This document shows, piece after piece, positions 1 to 54,417 of a DNA stretch of 64,000 nucleotides (positions within the stretch are counted from its first letter, which is position 1; every line of letters begins with the position of its first letter). Origin of the DNA: Archangium sp. (lineage in GTDB: Bacteria > Myxococcota > Myxococcia > Myxococcales > Myxococcaceae); contig JAUYRZ010000096.1 in the NCBI GenBank assembly GCA_030695565.1, positions 1 to 64,000 of the forward strand, in the 5' to 3' direction. Made by a program: the position numbers and the translations under genes. The notes beneath the pieces are model-generated. The model did no database searches. It saw only the letters and a program-made list of their open reading frames with translations, and had not been told where the DNA came from.

Positions 1-101
1 GCGTGTGCCCCTGTCAACGCTTGGCTCTCCGTCTCACGACGGTAGGCCCATGACTCGGGGTCGCCGTGGATTGCTAGTCCTTCGGCGTGCAGCTCTTTCA
101 T
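1..101 (-). CDS. Small hypothetical protein, 5' part only; resembles the small ORF found next to group II intron reverse transcriptases
   Basis: Only the first 33 codons are in the window; the gene continues past the left edge. The start is the ATG at 101-99, with a near-perfect Shine-Dalgarno GGAGGAG at 111-105. The peptide begins MKELHAEGLAIHGDPESW and carries a later SQALTGAH. From memory this matches a family of short proteins (MKExYxEGLAxHxDPESC...EALTG) often found just before group II intron reverse transcriptase/maturase genes. That link is recall, not a search, and the reverse transcriptase itself would lie outside the window. The strong ribosome binding site supports real translation. 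Confidence 0.5.
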   Translation of the reverse strand, partial: MKELHAEGLAIHGDPESWAYRRETESQALTGAH

Positions 102-41481: not shown

Positions 41482-41551
41482 GAGCACACGACGCACTCAG
41501 CCCCCGCAGGCGCCCTCGGCCCGGGTGGCAGCGCGCACAAGCGCTCTGGCG

Positions 41552-41730
41552 TGGCAGGTCTTCGGGCTCGCGAGCCGTGCTGGTGAACGTCCACCAGCGC
41601 CTACTGCCCCCACTTCCCAGCCGACTTCGGCCAGTGACTTCTGGAGGGTTCGTTCTCGCCTACCGCTGCGGGGCAGCCCCGGAATGTCACCGGGTTCCCT
41701 TTTCATCCCCGTCGCCGGGGAACCAACGCG
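41552..41730 (-). promoter_or_regulatory. Cobalamin (B12) riboswitch in the nrdA leader
   Basis: Read on the minus strand, the leader has the hallmarks of the cobalamin riboswitch in order: ggttcccc ... ggggatgaaa, the conserved core AGGGAACCCGGTGACATTCC followed by GGGGCTGCCCCGCAGCGGTA, and the 3' B12 box GCCCGAAGACCTGCCA ending at about 41552. The nrdA start lies about 70 bases downstream. By analogy with the known B12 riboswitch before nrdAB of Streptomyces, binding of the coenzyme should switch the class I reductase off. Edges are approximate; the P1 stem was not folded. Confidence 0.9.
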
Positions 41731-41788
41731 CGGCCCAGATATGGGGGGATGACCGATCCGTCAACACAAGATGTTGTAGATGCGGGCG

Positions 41789-45309: not shown

Positions 45310-46755
45310 TCACTTCGGCTTCATCGACTTCGCGTCGAGCGAGTACTTCTTCACCAGCCGCTCGATCGACTTGCGATGCAGCCCCGACTCACGCGCCGCG
45401 CGGCTGATGTTGCCGTCACAGCGCTTGAGCACCTGGCCGATGTACTCGCGCTCAAAGTTCTCCAGCAGCTGCTCCTTGGCGTCCTTGAAGCTCAGGTGCT
45501 CGTTGAACGGGAGCGGCTGCTCCTGGTGCTGACCCTGCACGCGCGCGGGCAGGTGCTGCAGGTCGATCATCTCGCCGTCGCTGAAGGTGAGCACGTGGCT
45601 GATCACGTTCATCAGCTCGCGGATGTTGCCGGGCCAGGAGTACTGCATCAGCACGCTCATCGCGGGGGCCGAGACGATCTTCTTCCCGTGGCGCGCGACG
45701 ATCTCAGGGTCGCCGAGCTCCTTCTTGATGATGTGCGGAATGTCTTCGCGGCGCTGACGCAGCGGCGGCAGCTGGATGTTGATGACGGAGAGCCGGAAGT
45801 AGAGATCTTCGCGGAAGTTGCCGGTCTGGATCTCTTTGACGAGATCCCGATTGGTGGCGGCGATGACGCGAACGTCGATCTCCTGCACCTCGTTGCCGCC
45901 GACGCGCCGCACCTCGCGGTTCTCCAGCACGCGCAACAGCTTGGGCTGCAGGTCGGTGCGCAGCTCTCCCAGCTCATCGAGGAAGATGGTGCCGCCGTTG
46001 GCGCGCTCGAAGGCGCCGGGGCGTGAGGCGATCGCGCCGGTGAAGGCGCCCTTCTCGTGACCGAACAACTCACTCTCGATGAGGTTCGGAGGAATCGCGC
46101 CGCAGTCGAGCACCACCATCGGCCCGCGTTTGCGCCCGGAGAGCTCGTGAATGGCGCGCGCGACCAGCTCTTTGCCGGTGCCCGTCTCGCCCTGGATGAT
46201 CACCGACACGTCCATCGGCGCGATCTTCTTGATGAGCCCGAAGATCTGCCGCATCTTCACCGACTGGCCGATCATCCCGCACAGCTCGCCATCTCGATCG
46301 GGCTCGACCGTCACCTCTTCATCGATGGGCGCGAACGACAGCGTGGTCTGCCCGGCTCTGACCTGGCTGCCCTGAGACAAATAGGCGCGCTCGATGCGGC
46401 GGCCGTCGAGCCAGGTGCCGTTGGTCGAGTTCAGGTCGATCACCAGGTAACCGCGCTCGGTGTACTGAATCTCGAAGTGGTGCCGGCTGGCGGTGCGGTC
46501 TTCCACCAGCACGAGGTCGTTGGTGGAATGGGCGCCGACGCGCAGCCGCTCCTTGTCGCTGACCACTTCTTTACCGGTATCGGGCCCGCCGGTGACCGCC
46601 AGGCGGCACTTGCGCACCTTGAGGGTGGTGCGGTTCTCGACCACCAGCGTGTGCGTGGTGGTGATGTGGCCTTCTTCGAACGGATCCAGATACGCGGCAT
46701 CACCGGGGCTGGTGAGGATCTCGTCCTGGCCTGACGTCTTCGGCTCATTCGACAT
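45310..46755 (-). CDS. FHA-domain sigma-54-dependent transcriptional activator
   Basis: A 481-residue enhancer-binding protein. Residues about 65-135 are an FHA domain ([32 protein letters not shown]), which reads phosphothreonine. The AAA+ domain (about 165-395) has Walker A GETGTGKE, the sigma-54 contact loop GAFTGA and Walker [11 protein letters not shown]. The C-terminus is a Fis-type helix-turn-helix ([20 protein letters not shown]). This architecture is frequent in myxobacteria, where Ser/Thr kinases feed the FHA domain. Target genes are not evident here. Confidence 0.95.
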
Positions 46756-46797
46756 TGGGGCGGCAAGCTAACACCGCGCACGCTACATACGCGCGCC

Positions 46798-50586: not shown

Positions 50587-51468
50587 CTATTTGAGAGACA
50601 GCACGTGCTGAACGATCGCACCCGCGATGTCCTTCTTGGTGGCCTGCTCGAGACCTTCGAAACCCGGGCTGGAGTTGAGCTCCATCACCTTGGGGCCGGT
50701 TCGGCCCTCGAGCATGTCCACTCCGCACACCGACAAGCCGATGGTCTTCGCCGCGCGCACGGCGGTCTCCTGGTAGTCCCTGTCGAGGCGAATCGGTTTG
50801 CCCTCGCCACCGCGGTGCAGGTTGCTGCGGAACTCTTCGCCTTGCGCCTGCCTGCGCATCGCGCCGACCACTTCGTCGCCCACCACCAGGGCGCGCACGT
50901 CTTTGCCCGCCGACTCCATGATGAATTCTTGCAGGCACACGTCCTGGCCCAGGCCCCAGAAGGTCTGCACGATGGTCTCGGCCTCGGCGCGGGTGTTGGC
51001 GATCATCACGCCCACGCCCTGCGTTCCGCGCAGCAGCTTGATGATGCAGGGCAGCCCACCCACCGCGTCCACCAGCTGGCGCACTTTTGCGCCGACCGTG
51101 GCCATCACGGTGCGGGGCACGTCGACGCCGGCTTGCGCGAGCAGCTGCAGACAGCGCAACTTGTCGCGGCTGCGGGCGATGGCCCCCGCGGGGTTGGCGA
51201 CCGGGACCCCCATGGTCTCCAGGTGACTGACGACCGCCATGCCGTAGGTGGTGATGCTCGCCCCAATGCGGGGGATGGCCGCGGTCAGGTTTTCGATCGG
51301 CTCACCGCGGTAGAGCAACGAGTTGCCGCCCGGTGCGACCACCAGGGTGCAGCGCAGGGTGTCCATCACCAGGGCCTGCGCGCCCTGGGCCTTCGCTGCT
51401 TCGATGAGCCTCGAGGTGGAGTACAGCGACTTCTTTCGCGACAGGATGCAGAGCCGCTTACGAGGCAT
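50587..51468 (-). CDS. rimK: RimK-type ATP-grasp alpha-glutamate ligase
   Basis: A 293-residue ATP-grasp enzyme close in size to E. coli RimK (300), which adds glutamates to the C-terminus of ribosomal protein S6. Visible signatures: a RimK N-terminal part (PRIGASITTYGMAVVSHLET, NPAGAIARSRDKLRCLQLLA), the nucleotide-lysine region (LPCIIKLLRGTQGVGV), and the metal-binding end KVMELNSSPGFEGLE. In several bacteria such enzymes act on other substrates (tetrahydrosarcinapterin, LysW), so the S6 target is inferred. Confidence 0.88.
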   Translation of the reverse strand: MPRKRLCILSRKKSLYSTSRLIEAAKAQGAQALVMDTLRCTLVVAPGGNSLLYRGEPIENLTAAIPRIGASITTYGMAVVSHLETMGVPVANPAGAIARSRDKLRCLQLLAQAGVDVPRTVMATVGAKVRQLVDAVGGLPCIIKLLRGTQGVGVMIANTRAEAETIVQTFWGLGQDVCLQEFIMESAGKDVRALVVGDEVVGAMRRQAQGEEFRSNLHRGGEGKPIRLDRDYQETAVRAAKTIGLSVCGVDMLEGRTGPKVMELNSSPGFEGLEQATKKDIAGAIVQHVLSLK

Positions 51469-51517
51469 GGGCGGGCGACCGTAACAGTTCAGAGCCAGAG
51501 CAACAGACCCCCGCGCC

Positions 51518-51534
51518 GGGTCGGGGTGAGGGCC
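51518..51534. repeat. Partial REP-like repeat (copy 9)
   Basis: One arm only (gggtcggggtgagggcc), between rimK and the fragment at 51557. Confidence 0.6.
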
Positions 51535-51556
51535 CTTTCAGTTACACTCGCTGCGC

Positions 51557-51712
51557 TTGCGCACATACCTCGTCGGGCCCCTCGCTGGACGAACTGCGCT
51601 CGTCATCGCCTTCCTGCTCGCCCTGCCCTTCTGCTGGGTCGGGCTGTTCGCCGACGACTACTTCCACCAGCTGGCCATCGAGGGCGACCCGCTGATGCCG
51701 GTGACGCCGTGG
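51557..51712 (+). pseudogene. N-terminal fragment of a polytopic membrane protein
   Basis: It encodes MRTYLVGPLAGRTALVIAF then LLALPFCWVGLFADDYFHQLAI, a start typical of large multi-helix membrane glycosyltransferase-like proteins with the early acidic DDY motif. After VTPWDA the frame becomes Arg/Pro-rich and is not protein-like. The rest of the gene has been lost, and the coupled ORF for the kinase-like gene begins right there. Confidence 0.55.
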
Positions 51713-51713
51713 G

Positions 51714-51869
51714 ATGCCCCAGCGCATTCAGGTGCGCTTCGACGAGAACCCCGAGCTCGGCGGGTACACCCTGGCGCGGTGGCAAGATGGTGTATTGGGG
51801 CCGCTGTTGCTTCCGGCCGTGGGTGAGACGCTCGAGCTGCCCCGGCTGCATGGGGTGTTGGCCTTATGA
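51714..51869 (+). CDS. Small ORF coupled to the pseudokinase gene
   Basis: Fifty-one residues (MPQRIQVRFDENPELGGYTL ...) starting at the junction with the membrane-protein fragment and ending in TTATGA, which overlaps the ATG of the pseudokinase gene. It may be the remaining end of a longer lost gene, or a genuine coupled small protein. No family is recognised. Confidence 0.45.
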   Translation: MPQRIQVRFDENPELGGYTLARWQDGVLGPLLLPAVGETLELPRLHGVLAL

Positions 51870-53017
51870 CTCCATTCGAACCCATCCCCGAGCGCACTCA
51901 CGTCGGCGGCGGCGATCGGCTGCTCGGCGCGACCATCGGAGCGTATCGCGTGCTCGAGCACGTGACCGAGGGGCGGCTCGGCACCGTCTACCGCGCGCAG
52001 GAGATCGCGAGTGGTACCCCGGTGACGCTGGAGGTGCTGCGCACCGGCCGGGTGGGCAACGATGAAGAGGCGCGGGCGGCGAACGCGATCGGGTGTGCGG
52101 GCATCGCCGAGGTGCAGGCGTTCGGTCAGCTCCCCGACGAGCGCCGCTACCGGGTGATGGAGCGGCTGGACGGTGAGTCGCTCGAGCAGGTGCTGCTGCG
52201 TGGCCCGCTCGAGGCCCGCGAGGTGGTGCGGGTGCTGAATGAAGTGGCCAGCGTGCTTCAGGCGTCTCATGCGTGGGCGATCACCCATGGCCTGTTGGGT
52301 CCGTCGAGCGTGTGGCGGGTGAATGGTGGGGTGAAGCTCATCGACTTCGGGTTGGTGAAGGCGGCCGCGCGCGAGGTGGATCTGCAGGCGCTGGGGGCGT
52401 TGGGGTTTGCGCTGTTGGCAGGGAAGGAGCTCGAAGGTGCTCCGCCTGTGCTGGGCCCGGAGCCGCTCCACCGTCTTCTCCGCGCGTTGTTCGAGAAGCG
52501 CGTGGTCGACGCGACGGTGGCGAAGCGTGAGCTCGAGCAGATGCTCATCGCGGCGCCGGCCAGACCCGCGCGGCGAACAGTGCTGCCGTCGGTGCTCGTC
52601 GGCTTCGTCATCGCGGTGGGCGTGTTCGCCATGTTCTTCATGTCGAAAGAACAGGTGGCTCTGCCGGTGGTGGAGGTGGCTGAGCCAGCAGCTGACCCGT
52701 TGATCGAGGAAGAGTTGATCGAGCCCGAGGAAGCGCCCGTCGTTCAAGATGTCGTCGCCCCCAGGCCCCTGCCCCGGGTGGTGAAGCAGGCGCGGCCCGT
52801 ACCGGGTGCGCAGGCGCTGCAGGAGCTGACGTCGAAGTTGGAAGCACAGCTTCGGAAGAAGGCGCGGCCCGGTGACGATCTCGATCAAGCGCTCTTCGTG
52901 CTCAACAAGCAGCGACTGCGGCTGACGGGGAATCCGAGTGAAGCCGAGCGGAAAGAGGTCGCCAGGCAGCTGGCAGGTTGGCGGCGAAGCTACCTCCAGC
53001 TTCAACGGCAGCGCTGA
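51866..53017 (+). CDS. Membrane-anchored Ser/Thr pseudokinase
   Basis: A 383-residue protein. Residues about 25-230 follow the bacterial Ser/Thr kinase fold (TEGRLGTVYRAQ glycine loop), but essential residues are changed. The ATP-anchoring Lys of the third strand (VAIK) is Glu56 in VTLEVL, and the HRDLKPEN loop is HGLLGPSSV (141-149), lacking the catalytic Asp, the Lys and the Asn. The DFG metal motif remains (160-162). A transmembrane helix (239-258) leads to a periplasmic Pro/Glu-rich then helical tail. Phosphate transfer is unlikely; a binding or scaffold role fits better. Confidence 0.85.
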   Translation: MTPFEPIPERTHVGGGDRLLGATIGAYRVLEHVTEGRLGTVYRAQEIASGTPVTLEVLRTGRVGNDEEARAANAIGCAGIAEVQAFGQLPDERRYRVMERLDGESLEQVLLRGPLEAREVVRVLNEVASVLQASHAWAITHGLLGPSSVWRVNGGVKLIDFGLVKAAAREVDLQALGALGFALLAGKELEGAPPVLGPEPLHRLLRALFEKRVVDATVAKRELEQMLIAAPARPARRTVLPSVLVGFVIAVGVFAMFFMSKEQVALPVVEVAEPAADPLIEEELIEPEEAPVVQDVVAPRPLPRVVKQARPVPGAQALQELTSKLEAQLRKKARPGDDLDQALFVLNKQRLRLTGNPSEAERKEVARQLAGWRRSYLQLQRQR

Positions 53018-54417
53018 TAGTCGGCCAACCGGCCCTGCAGCTGCATGCGCAACCCCGTCGACGCGCGCCGAGGCAACACCTCGAGGGCCCGCTGCTGACT
53101 CACCACCGCCAGCGCACACAACCCTGCCTGATGCTGCACCGCCGCGGTCGCCGCCTGCACGCGCGCATCACCCGGAGCGAGCCCCGCCGCTTTCTCCGCC
53201 AGCACGACGCCTTCCTGGCAGCGCGCCTCGGCGCACCTGAACTTCGCCAGCTCGCTGAGCGCAAAGAACGACTTCGGCTCCAGCTCCACCGCCAACGCGA
53301 GTGCCTGGCCCCGCTCCGGATCGATCGCCGGCAGCGCGAGCCCCAACAACAACCACCCGGCCGCAGCTTGAGGCGTCTGCTGGGTGAGCGCGCGCGCCGC
53401 GTCGACGCGCCCCTCCGCGGTCTCCTGAGTCACCACGTTCTGCTCCTGCGCCATCAGGTCACTGGGCCCGAGCTTCAGCGCCATCTGCGCCTCGGCCCGG
53501 GCACGCGGCCACGCACCGACCGCACCCGCCGCGCGCGCCAGCAGCGCATGCACCTCCGCATCGGGCATCACGCGTTCATTGAAGGCCGTATTGAGCTGCG
53601 CCAGCTCCATCACCTGCGAGCGGGTCTGCCCCTTCGCGATGTACGCGTCGGCCGCCTGCGCCATCTCTTCTGGAGACACCTTCCCCAACGCCGCATCCCA
53701 CGCGCTGCGCGGCTCTTCGCCTTCCGCGAGGCTGCGCATGAATCGGTCGAGCGCACCGCGCTGCTCATTGAACAAGAAGTGCACCCAGAACCACGAACTG
53801 GCGGCCCGGTGCTGCTCGAGGCCGTTGAGCGGATCGGGCTCCACATCCCACGCCCAGAGTGACGTCACCGGGAGCACGCCCCACCGCATCACCTCCCCGA
53901 GCTTGAGCTGATGCGCCGCACCGCGCACCGCGAGCTTCTTCTCGGAGTCGATGGTGATGGTCTCCAGATAGATGGCCAGGCCCTCCTCGAACCACCGCGG
54001 CCACCTTCGCAACGCGCTCGCCGAGGAATGGTGCGCCAGCTCATGAAGGGTCAGCCGCAGCTGGGTCGACTCGATGAGCGCGGTGGTGCTGGCGGTGAGC
54101 AACAACGGCCCGCGCCAGTCATGTGCGAGCGTGGCGTCGAGCAGGGGATCTCCCGAGAGATCCTGCAGCTGCGCGGTGCTGGCGAAGATCACCGTCTCCA
54201 ATGGCTCAGGAGAATCCTTGCCGCCGTTGGGAAACGCAGCGAGCACCGAAGCGCGCGCCCGCTCGAGCTGCACCGCCGTGCCGCGCGCCTCTTCGGCAGG
54301 CAGGTTGGTGCGCACCACGAAGTGCTGGGAGCGGAGCTCAAGCCAGGGCGTGCCCGCATGCGTGGCGCACTCCGGAGCAACGTGCGCGCAGCTGGAGAGC
54401 AGCGCGAACACACACAC
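53002..54417 (-). CDS. Lipoprotein with a peptidase-MA-like zinc metalloprotease domain and TPRs
   Basis: A 471-residue protein starting at a GTG, with lipoprotein signal VFALLSSCAH. A zinc-binding HELAH (125-129) is followed by WFEEGLA (Glu144/145) as third ligand, the gluzincin arrangement of DUF1570/peptidase MA-like proteins. The C-terminal half is helical TPR-like (AEVHALLARAAGAVGAWPRA, PRRASTGLRMQLQGRLADYQ). It should cut or bind cell-wall or surface proteins. Its 3' end overlaps the pseudokinase gene tail-to-tail by 16 bp. Confidence 0.85.
   Translation of the reverse strand: MCVFALLSSCAHVAPECATHAGTPWLELRSQHFVVRTNLPAEEARGTAVQLERARASVLAAFPNGGKDSPEPLETVIFASTAQLQDLSGDPLLDATLAHDWRGPLLLTASTTALIESTQLRLTLHELAHHSSASALRRWPRWFEEGLAIYLETITIDSEKKLAVRGAAHQLKLGEVMRWGVLPVTSLWAWDVEPDPLNGLEQHRAASSWFWVHFLFNEQRGALDRFMRSLAEGEEPRSAWDAALGKVSPEEMAQAADAYIAKGQTRSQVMELAQLNTAFNERVMPDAEVHALLARAAGAVGAWPRARAEAQMALKLGPSDLMAQEQNVVTQETAEGRVDAARALTQQTPQAAAGWLLLGLALPAIDPERGQALALAVELEPKSFFALSELAKFRCAEARCQEGVVLAEKAAGLAPGDARVQAATAAVQHQAGLCALAVVSQQRALEVLPRRASTGLRMQLQGRLADYQRCR

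Follow-up and report, generated by a model that had tools for sequence, protein, structure and literature searches.

The question raised by this locus is whether a gene for a kinase-like receptor without catalytic residues is decaying, or has been kept because its product works by other means. Bacterial pseudokinases are common and hardly studied, and a 2025 review, cited here and below from its available portion, calls for the characterisation of one representative of each bacterial pseudokinase family (PMC12599244). The window, that is, the whole stretch of 64,000 nucleotides analysed, comes from an Archangium sp. contig, and the gene considered here encodes 383 amino acids plus a stop codon from an ATG start.

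Layout of the gene and its catalytic motifs

The features of the gene are the following:

51866..53017, + strand: receptor-type pseudokinase gene (open reading frame, Pfam, orthologues, AlphaFold model)
51881..51901, + strand: conserved N-terminal motif PIP-[ED]-x-T-[QH], residues 6-12 (alignment of copies)
51968..51988, + strand: remnant of the Gly-rich loop, E35-V41, EGRLGTV (alignment with intact kinases)
52031..52033, + strand: Glu56 at the position of the VAIK lysine (alignment)
52286..52312, + strand: degenerate catalytic loop HGLLGPSSV, residues 141-149 (sequence and alignment)
52343..52351, + strand: DFG motif, residues 160-162 (invariant in 10/10 copies)
52352..52378, + strand: place where the activation segment and APE are deleted, DFG and Asp172 of alpha-F being separated by 9 residues
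52580..52636, + strand: predicted transmembrane segment, residues 239-257 (hydropathy; helix modelled at 241-258 with low confidence)
52799..53002, + strand: extracytoplasmic three-helix tail, residues 312-379, common to intact receptor kinases (tail homology, AlphaFold)

The GC content by codon position (0.77/0.44/0.82) fits a coding frame in a GC-rich genome, and scans of 51400-53200 gave no promoter-like sites and two weak terminator-like ones. The Pfam Pkinase profile (PF00069) matches residues 27-172 at 34.3 bits, over a curated cut-off of 31.7, in an alignment that spans only profile positions 1-153 out of 263, and it matches all ten members of alignment A3 at E <= 0.01; this match above cut-off, together with a kinase fold, makes the protein a member of the protein kinase superfamily. 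For the copies, Pfam returned kinase-type matches and, besides these, TCAD9 alone, below cut-off in 4/10 and located within the kinase region in the single member whose match was placed; there was no PASTA match in the pseudokinase. An AlphaFold2 model built on A3 (10 sequences) reached a mean pLDDT of 81.6, with block means of 87-98 over residues 21-230 and of 81-95 in the tail, where three confident helices are modelled (315-332, 339-353 and 359-382), while the linker and the N-terminus are of low confidence. In VIA-align comparisons the model gave near ties with PknA (4ow8, Z 22.3, 213 residues, 3.0 A), PknB (1mru, Z 22.2), the MviN pseudokinase domain (3otv, Z 21.5) and the FhaA complex (3oun, Z 21.4). 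The 19 hydrophobic residues 239-257, preceded by an Arg-rich flank, suggest that the chain crosses the membrane once, leaving the kinase fold inside and the tail outside, beyond an acidic and Pro-containing linker, and the hydropathy peak is present in 10/10 copies. The membrane helix and external tail of the preliminary description, which had been made from the sequence alone, are in this way borne out by hydropathy, tail homology and the three-helix prediction.

The catalytic motifs were compared with 29 intact kinase rows from the same myxobacterial family, which represent 28 proteins, own_L005 being a duplicate of G000C124. Both the Gly loop and the DFG had been described as kept; the DFG indeed is, whereas the loop survives only in part, as TEGRLG versus the GEGGMG of kinases, with Thr34 at the first Gly and Arg37 where these kinases usually have a Gly. 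Arg37 occurs in 9/10 copies, G010 being the exception, and in none of the 29 intact rows (28 different). At the beta3 strand the window protein reads VTLE versus VAIK, so that the Glu56 described earlier holds, and the position is mostly Glu across the copies (8/10), with Gln in G022 and Lys in G010. The sequence and the kinase alignment likewise agree with the reported change of HRDLKPEN into HGLLGPSSV: residues 141-148 are HGLLGPSS versus HRDLKPSN in kinases, with Leu143 at the position of the catalytic Asp. The HRD Arg is Gly in 10/10 copies, and the Asp is absent from all of them, replaced by Leu, Ser, Ala, Asn or Cys (Asn in 4/10). If a pseudokinase is a kinase homologue that has lost at least one of the beta3 Lys, HRD Asp and DFG Asp, Glu56 and Leu143 make this protein one, and it would presumably lack phosphotransfer activity.

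A further loss, absent from the preliminary description, is the deletion of the activation segment with its APE motif, together with a compressed C-lobe. Only 9 residues separate the DFG from the alpha-F Asp in the window protein, versus 39-44 in the 15 of 29 intact rows that could be measured by pattern (41 in kinase L009), the other 14 displaying a full segment with APE or SPE. The gap is of 9-13 residues in 10/10 copies (10 each in G003, G009 and G119, as read by eye) and the activation segment is absent in all of them; an 'APE' string of G010 falls within its 13-residue linker and was not counted as the motif. This pattern of losses is not due to chance, since the nine other readable homologues have it as well.

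Orthologues, order of the losses and constraint

When 96 genomes of the myxobacterial family, the window's own included, were scanned with a profile built from eight copies (A1), orthologues appeared in 11 of them (Archangium/Myxococcaceae MAGs) at 414-613 bits, the next best match being at 168 bits. No further copies were found in 147 genomes of the class, among them those of the family. By tool-assigned genus group, four copies belong to g1, four to g5 and one each to g18, g6 and g3, and the matching named records are Archangium sp., Archangiaceae, Myxococcus sp., Myxococcaceae and Myxococcales MAGs. A contig scan with the single window protein gave no match, and the same scan with alignment A1 gave 12 loci, nine of them pseudokinase copies. 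The g3 copy (G007) has a frame break and lies on a short draft contig (3.3 kb); it was excluded from all alignments, so that counts run over ten copies including that of the window. Orthologues with intact VAIK and HRD motifs would have indicated a recent decay, and none exists among these ten readable copies: the substitutions are kept, with 10/10 lacking the HRD Arg and Asp and 9/10 the beta3 Lys.

In a kinase-core tree of 160 columns and 39 rows, the ten pseudokinases form one clade (99/99) against the 29 intact kinase rows (28 different); G010 branches first and the remaining nine group at 98/97. G010 is the most divergent copy and keeps both the beta3 Lys and the catalytic-loop Lys, which suggests that the decay of the catalytic centre was stepwise and old. 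Most simply, the HRD and the activation segment would have been lost before the two lysines, and the family can be regarded as a record of stepwise decay, with Lys but no Asp in G010 and neither in the nine others. Long branches keep the tree from resolving the sister kinase of the clade. The gene tree departs from the genera: in an AU test, uniting the four g1 rows in a single clade, a grouping picked after viewing the first tree, gave p 0.001. This mismatch points to either duplication with loss or transfer.

With G010 set aside, the other nine copies average 54% amino-acid identity over the kinase region, 64% over the tail and 66% over the N-terminal 20 residues, versus 28% over the linker and membrane parts, and third codon positions are the least conserved in each region. 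Pairwise dN/dS ranges from 0.24 to 0.60 in the kinase region (7 pairs) and from 0.12 to 0.37 in the tail (6/7 pairs, one being saturated), values that are rough given dS estimates of 0.56-1.42 and GC-rich third positions. In most pairs constraint is weaker on the kinase region than on the tail, and the kinase values of up to 0.60 would also fit a mere structural role; the three-helix tail is the best conserved folded part of the protein.

These data bear on the idea of a decaying pseudogene, or of a recent paralogue on its way out, which would account for the lost catalytic residues and activation segment, the patchy distribution, the frame break of G007 on its short contig and the remnant of an upstream gene whose middle is missing. 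Such a decay is already contradicted by the common losses and the conservation, as the frame is open in 10/10 readable copies from four genus groups, with the same losses throughout, a confident fold, a conserved tail and dN/dS below 1, and it must be considered highly improbable. The earlier proposal, that catalysis was lost under selection while a role was kept, is, on the contrary, well supported by the conserved frame, fold and tail and by losses common to the copies, and the gene very probably encodes a maintained non-catalytic protein.

The outer tail and the candidate roles of the protein

As a single query, the window protein matches G000:C21 (locus L009), a live kinase from its own genome, in the tail (E 8e-4). 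A tail profile (A2) made from the ten pseudokinase tails and the tail of G000:C21, so that the match to this kinase is a given, produced 74 matches in 44/96 family genomes. Eleven of these are pseudokinase copies, and 52 of the 63 others are open frames of 500-770 aa. The 21 proteins examined among these 63 (L009 and 20 others) are all intact, with Lys, HRD Asp, DFG and APE or SPE, and two of them belong to the window's genome (G000C21 and G000C124). A class of tail-bearing receptor kinases can thus be defined here by a three-helix tail after the membrane helix, which the pseudokinase has, and by an intact catalytic core, which it has not. The common tail suggests that the pseudokinase has the build of a receptor kinase that kept its outer domain and lost its catalytic centre. 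Compared with the pseudokinase, G000:C21 shows the same order of kinase domain, hydrophobic segment, linker and tail (25% tail identity), but intact motifs and activation segment and no PIP-x-x-TQ N-terminus. In L009 and its relative G005C26, as in the pseudokinases, a TQ stands a short way ahead of the D-x-L-[IL]-G with which the kinase domain begins, which hints that these two are the closest kin. The G000C21 type, the nearest of the tail-sharing kinases, is also present in G005, where the pseudokinase was not detected, so that co-occurrence is not strict.

Modelled alone, the tail again gave three helices (pLDDT 84.9). Foldseek found no solved structure like it at E <= 0.001, and a profile search of solved chains gave nothing below E 0.37; being a short three-helix arrangement, weak structural matches to it carry little weight. 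As a separate observation, the intact receptor kinase L050 (G071:C2) has, as judged by eye, what seems to be a related helical tail repeated twice in tandem.

The view favoured here, with a probability of about 0.5, is that of a conserved dead single-pass receptor kinase that pairs with tail-sharing kinases, as a partner or decoy, and tunes their output. A cytoplasmic PknA/PknB-like fold that lacks the catalytic Asp, the beta3 Lys and the activation segment would be joined, via a single membrane helix and a linker that varies among copies, to a small outer three-helix domain, and the protein would work without catalysis, by binding. Intact receptor Ser/Thr kinases with the same tail would be its partners, contacted via the outer domain and/or the kinase fold, and this pairing would raise or lower their output, as receptor pseudokinases do elsewhere; in plants, the available text on EFR and BAK1 describes a receptor pseudokinase that regulates its partner (PMC11259431). 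The lack of phosphotransfer, the pairing and the direction of regulation are all things that we infer. Pairing is put first because many live kinases have this tail and no other folded part is as well conserved; taken by itself, its chances fall a little short of even. The lack of a conserved neighbourhood (see below), the loose co-occurrence, the patchiness (11/96 genomes) and the conflict between gene tree and genera count against it. The preliminary description had suggested binding to ATP or to a true kinase: the latter seems plausible, since the tail is common to intact receptor kinases, and the former less likely in view of the beta3 Glu and the imperfect Gly loop, even though the DFG is invariant. 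A bolder version, rather unlikely, would make the protein a bacterial counterpart of pseudokinase co-receptors: a dead kinase derived from a large set of myxobacterial receptor kinases with one outer three-helix domain in common would pair via this domain with several live paralogues and control their phosphorylation non-catalytically, its charge-swapped Arg37/Glu56 core, free of an activation segment, offering a fixed docking surface.

The main rival, itself rather unlikely, starts from the other end of the protein. An active kinase would phosphorylate the N-terminal [ED]-x-T-[QH], and an FHA protein or an enzyme would then be recruited to this MviN-like phospho-scaffold, with no need for tail pairing. 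T11 of this motif is invariant in 10/10 copies, the N-terminus is modelled with low confidence, as noted above, and its first 20 residues are as conserved as the tail (66% identity among nine copies), which fits such a scaffold too; a PIP motif of the pseudokinase kind is absent from the 40 residues preceding the Gly loop in all 29 intact rows (28 different). Moreover, the model is as near to MviN as to PknB, and PknB phosphorylates MviN, which then recruits FhaA, according to the review (PMC12599244). However, the phosphosite of MviN lies in the C-terminal tail of the pseudokinase domain and its DFG is lost, unlike here, and a phospho-scaffold leaves the strong conservation of the outer tail unexplained.

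Improbable, if not to the degree of plain decay, is a protein that kept nucleotide binding, in which Arg37 takes the role of the beta3 Lys and the DFG Asp binds the metal, the nucleotide serving as a switch or in a non-kinase transfer of the SelO/SidJ type. The invariant DFG is in line with it, as are the presence of Arg37 in the nine rows without beta3 Lys and its absence from G010, which has the Lys, and from the intact rows, and non-kinase activities of pseudokinases are known (PMC12599244). On the other hand, the correlation between Arg37 and Glu56 amounts to one branch of the tree, a beta3 Glu should repel phosphate, the first Gly of the loop is lost, and SelO retains its Lys (WHLK or LHLK in Table 1 of PMC12599244).

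The family also provides a natural case in which the activation segment was cleanly removed, as well as a set of live same-tail paralogues in one genome; with these paralogues and the decay record at hand, the regulation of live by dead bacterial receptor kinases becomes directly testable in myxobacteria.

Relation to known pseudokinases and genomic surroundings

Myxobacterial kinomes are very large, and the window's genome has 135 PF00069 matches, that of the window protein being the second weakest. Among 134 kinase rows (133 loci plus the window), Lys, Asp and Asp are all present in 120, and the catalytic Asp is absent from nine, a number that includes the window and two rows of the same C65 frame. 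A Glu stands at the APE place in 131/134 rows; the other three are the window, which lacks this region, L229, which reads SPD but is intact in other respects, and L270, whose match is short and partial. The 597-aa frame L267 (G000:C65:6360-8032) has two kinase-domain matches, and its row (HGHLAPHN, VLVQ) suggests a fusion of a pseudokinase domain with another kinase domain. Among other kinase-like frames of this genome, L201, L260, L261, L268 and L269 lack the catalytic Asp (HHN, HSN, HAA, HSA and HGE) and keep APE or SPE. In M. xanthus, 11/99 STPKs are reported as pseudokinases in the available text of PMC6791715, and 7/22 developmentally regulated STPK genes encode pseudokinases; these are myxobacterial dead STPKs too, a likeness between census figures and not protein by protein.

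Several known proteins resemble this one. PknA and PknB are alike in fold (Z about 22) and topology, whereas the pseudokinase has a dead catalytic core, lacks the activation segment and gives no PASTA match in Pfam. MviN (Rv3910, of family ActPs3), a membrane protein essential for peptidoglycan synthesis, is likewise a membrane-bound pseudokinase with a shortened activation loop and a similar fold; its DFG is lost, in contrast to the invariant DFG and attached helical tail found here (PMC12599244). EssB/YukC is likewise a single-pass protein with a cytoplasmic pseudokinase domain and a reduced activation loop; EssB has lost the three motifs (LDMR, Ytfvlapd, TRG) and belongs to type VII secretion (PMC12599244), whereas here the DFG is kept and the four nearest window genes, as compared with Pfam, give no type VII secretion context. 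As the families are described in PMC12599244, ActPs1 has all three catalytic residues substituted and ActPs3 all three motifs degraded, DFG included, whereas the DFG Asp is intact in this protein. ActPs2 combines Lys to Arg at beta3, Asp to Asn at HRD and a mostly deleted DFG, versus Lys mostly to Glu, Asp to Leu, Ser, Ala, Asn or Cys and a kept DFG; GLW has GLW for HRD and Leu or Trp for the beta3 Lys, versus HG-x-L and Glu, Gln or Lys; CP1 has no membrane segment and a linked COG3899 domain; and DLHK keeps the HRD Asp without a membrane segment, the reverse of the lost Asp and predicted segment found here. By motif, the family thus fits none of ActPs1-3, GLW, CP1, DLHK and EssB as that review describes them. 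The literature on myxobacterial pseudokinases, in a range that mostly excluded subscription papers, gave the tyrosine pseudokinase EcpK and the M. xanthus census, with no description of this family among the texts available. Myxobacterial pseudokinases have been reported before, and this one represents a known kind in a form specific to its lineage.

Gene context was compared over 5.1-20 kb around nine orthologues plus the 3.3 kb contig of G007, and the neighbourhood is not conserved. Synteny is long between G009 and G119, and G030 and G116 have in common one upstream gene family (an OPT transporter in G116) and two downstream ones (Band_7). These last are two same-strand genes of Band_7/SPFH type after the pseudokinase (L075:10661-12728 in G116, by Pfam; L069:3840-6112 in G030, by BLAST likeness). 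Frames antisense to the pseudokinase gene also recur among the neighbourhoods. When the 115 window frames of at least 90 aa within 10 kb on either side were compared with the orthologue neighbourhoods, three were matched: the pseudokinase, its antisense frame and a frame at 45313-46767, named response-regulator-like by eye (match in G003). With neighbourhoods that differ, no partner follows from gene context. A tRNA-Leu adjoins the copies of G004 and G022 (nine loci scanned), is absent in the window, and was treated as a coincidence; a role in defence was also dismissed, the matches to the PADLOC PD-T4-6 kinase models (best 5e-21) being taken as generic kinase-domain ones. Within about 2.5 kb of the pseudokinase, an FKBP-type isomerase was found in G009, G119 and G022:

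L070:11090-11503: FKBP-type isomerase
L076:7789-8259: FKBP-type isomerase
L073:12816-13556: FKBP-type isomerase

As G009 and G119 are syntenic, this proximity amounts to two observations and may be due to chance.

In the window itself, the four nearest genes gave RimK, DLH and two without a Pfam match over cut-off. The first is a RimK-type ATP-grasp ligase at 50587-51468 (- strand), which adjoins the pseudokinase in divergent orientation. Between them, 51560-51866 (+ strand) holds two pieces of a membrane-protein gene, about 52 near-start codons and about 51 end codons, which lie in different frames and lack the some 476 codons that would separate them. G003 and G004 carry an intact version at other places, as open frames of 662 and 675 aa; the stop of the remnant in the window overlaps the ATG of the pseudokinase (ATGA). 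Farther away, a cobalamin riboswitch lies at 41536-41743 (- strand, 109.3 bits), and a group II intron match (D1-D4-6) at 1-98 (- strand) runs off the window edge.
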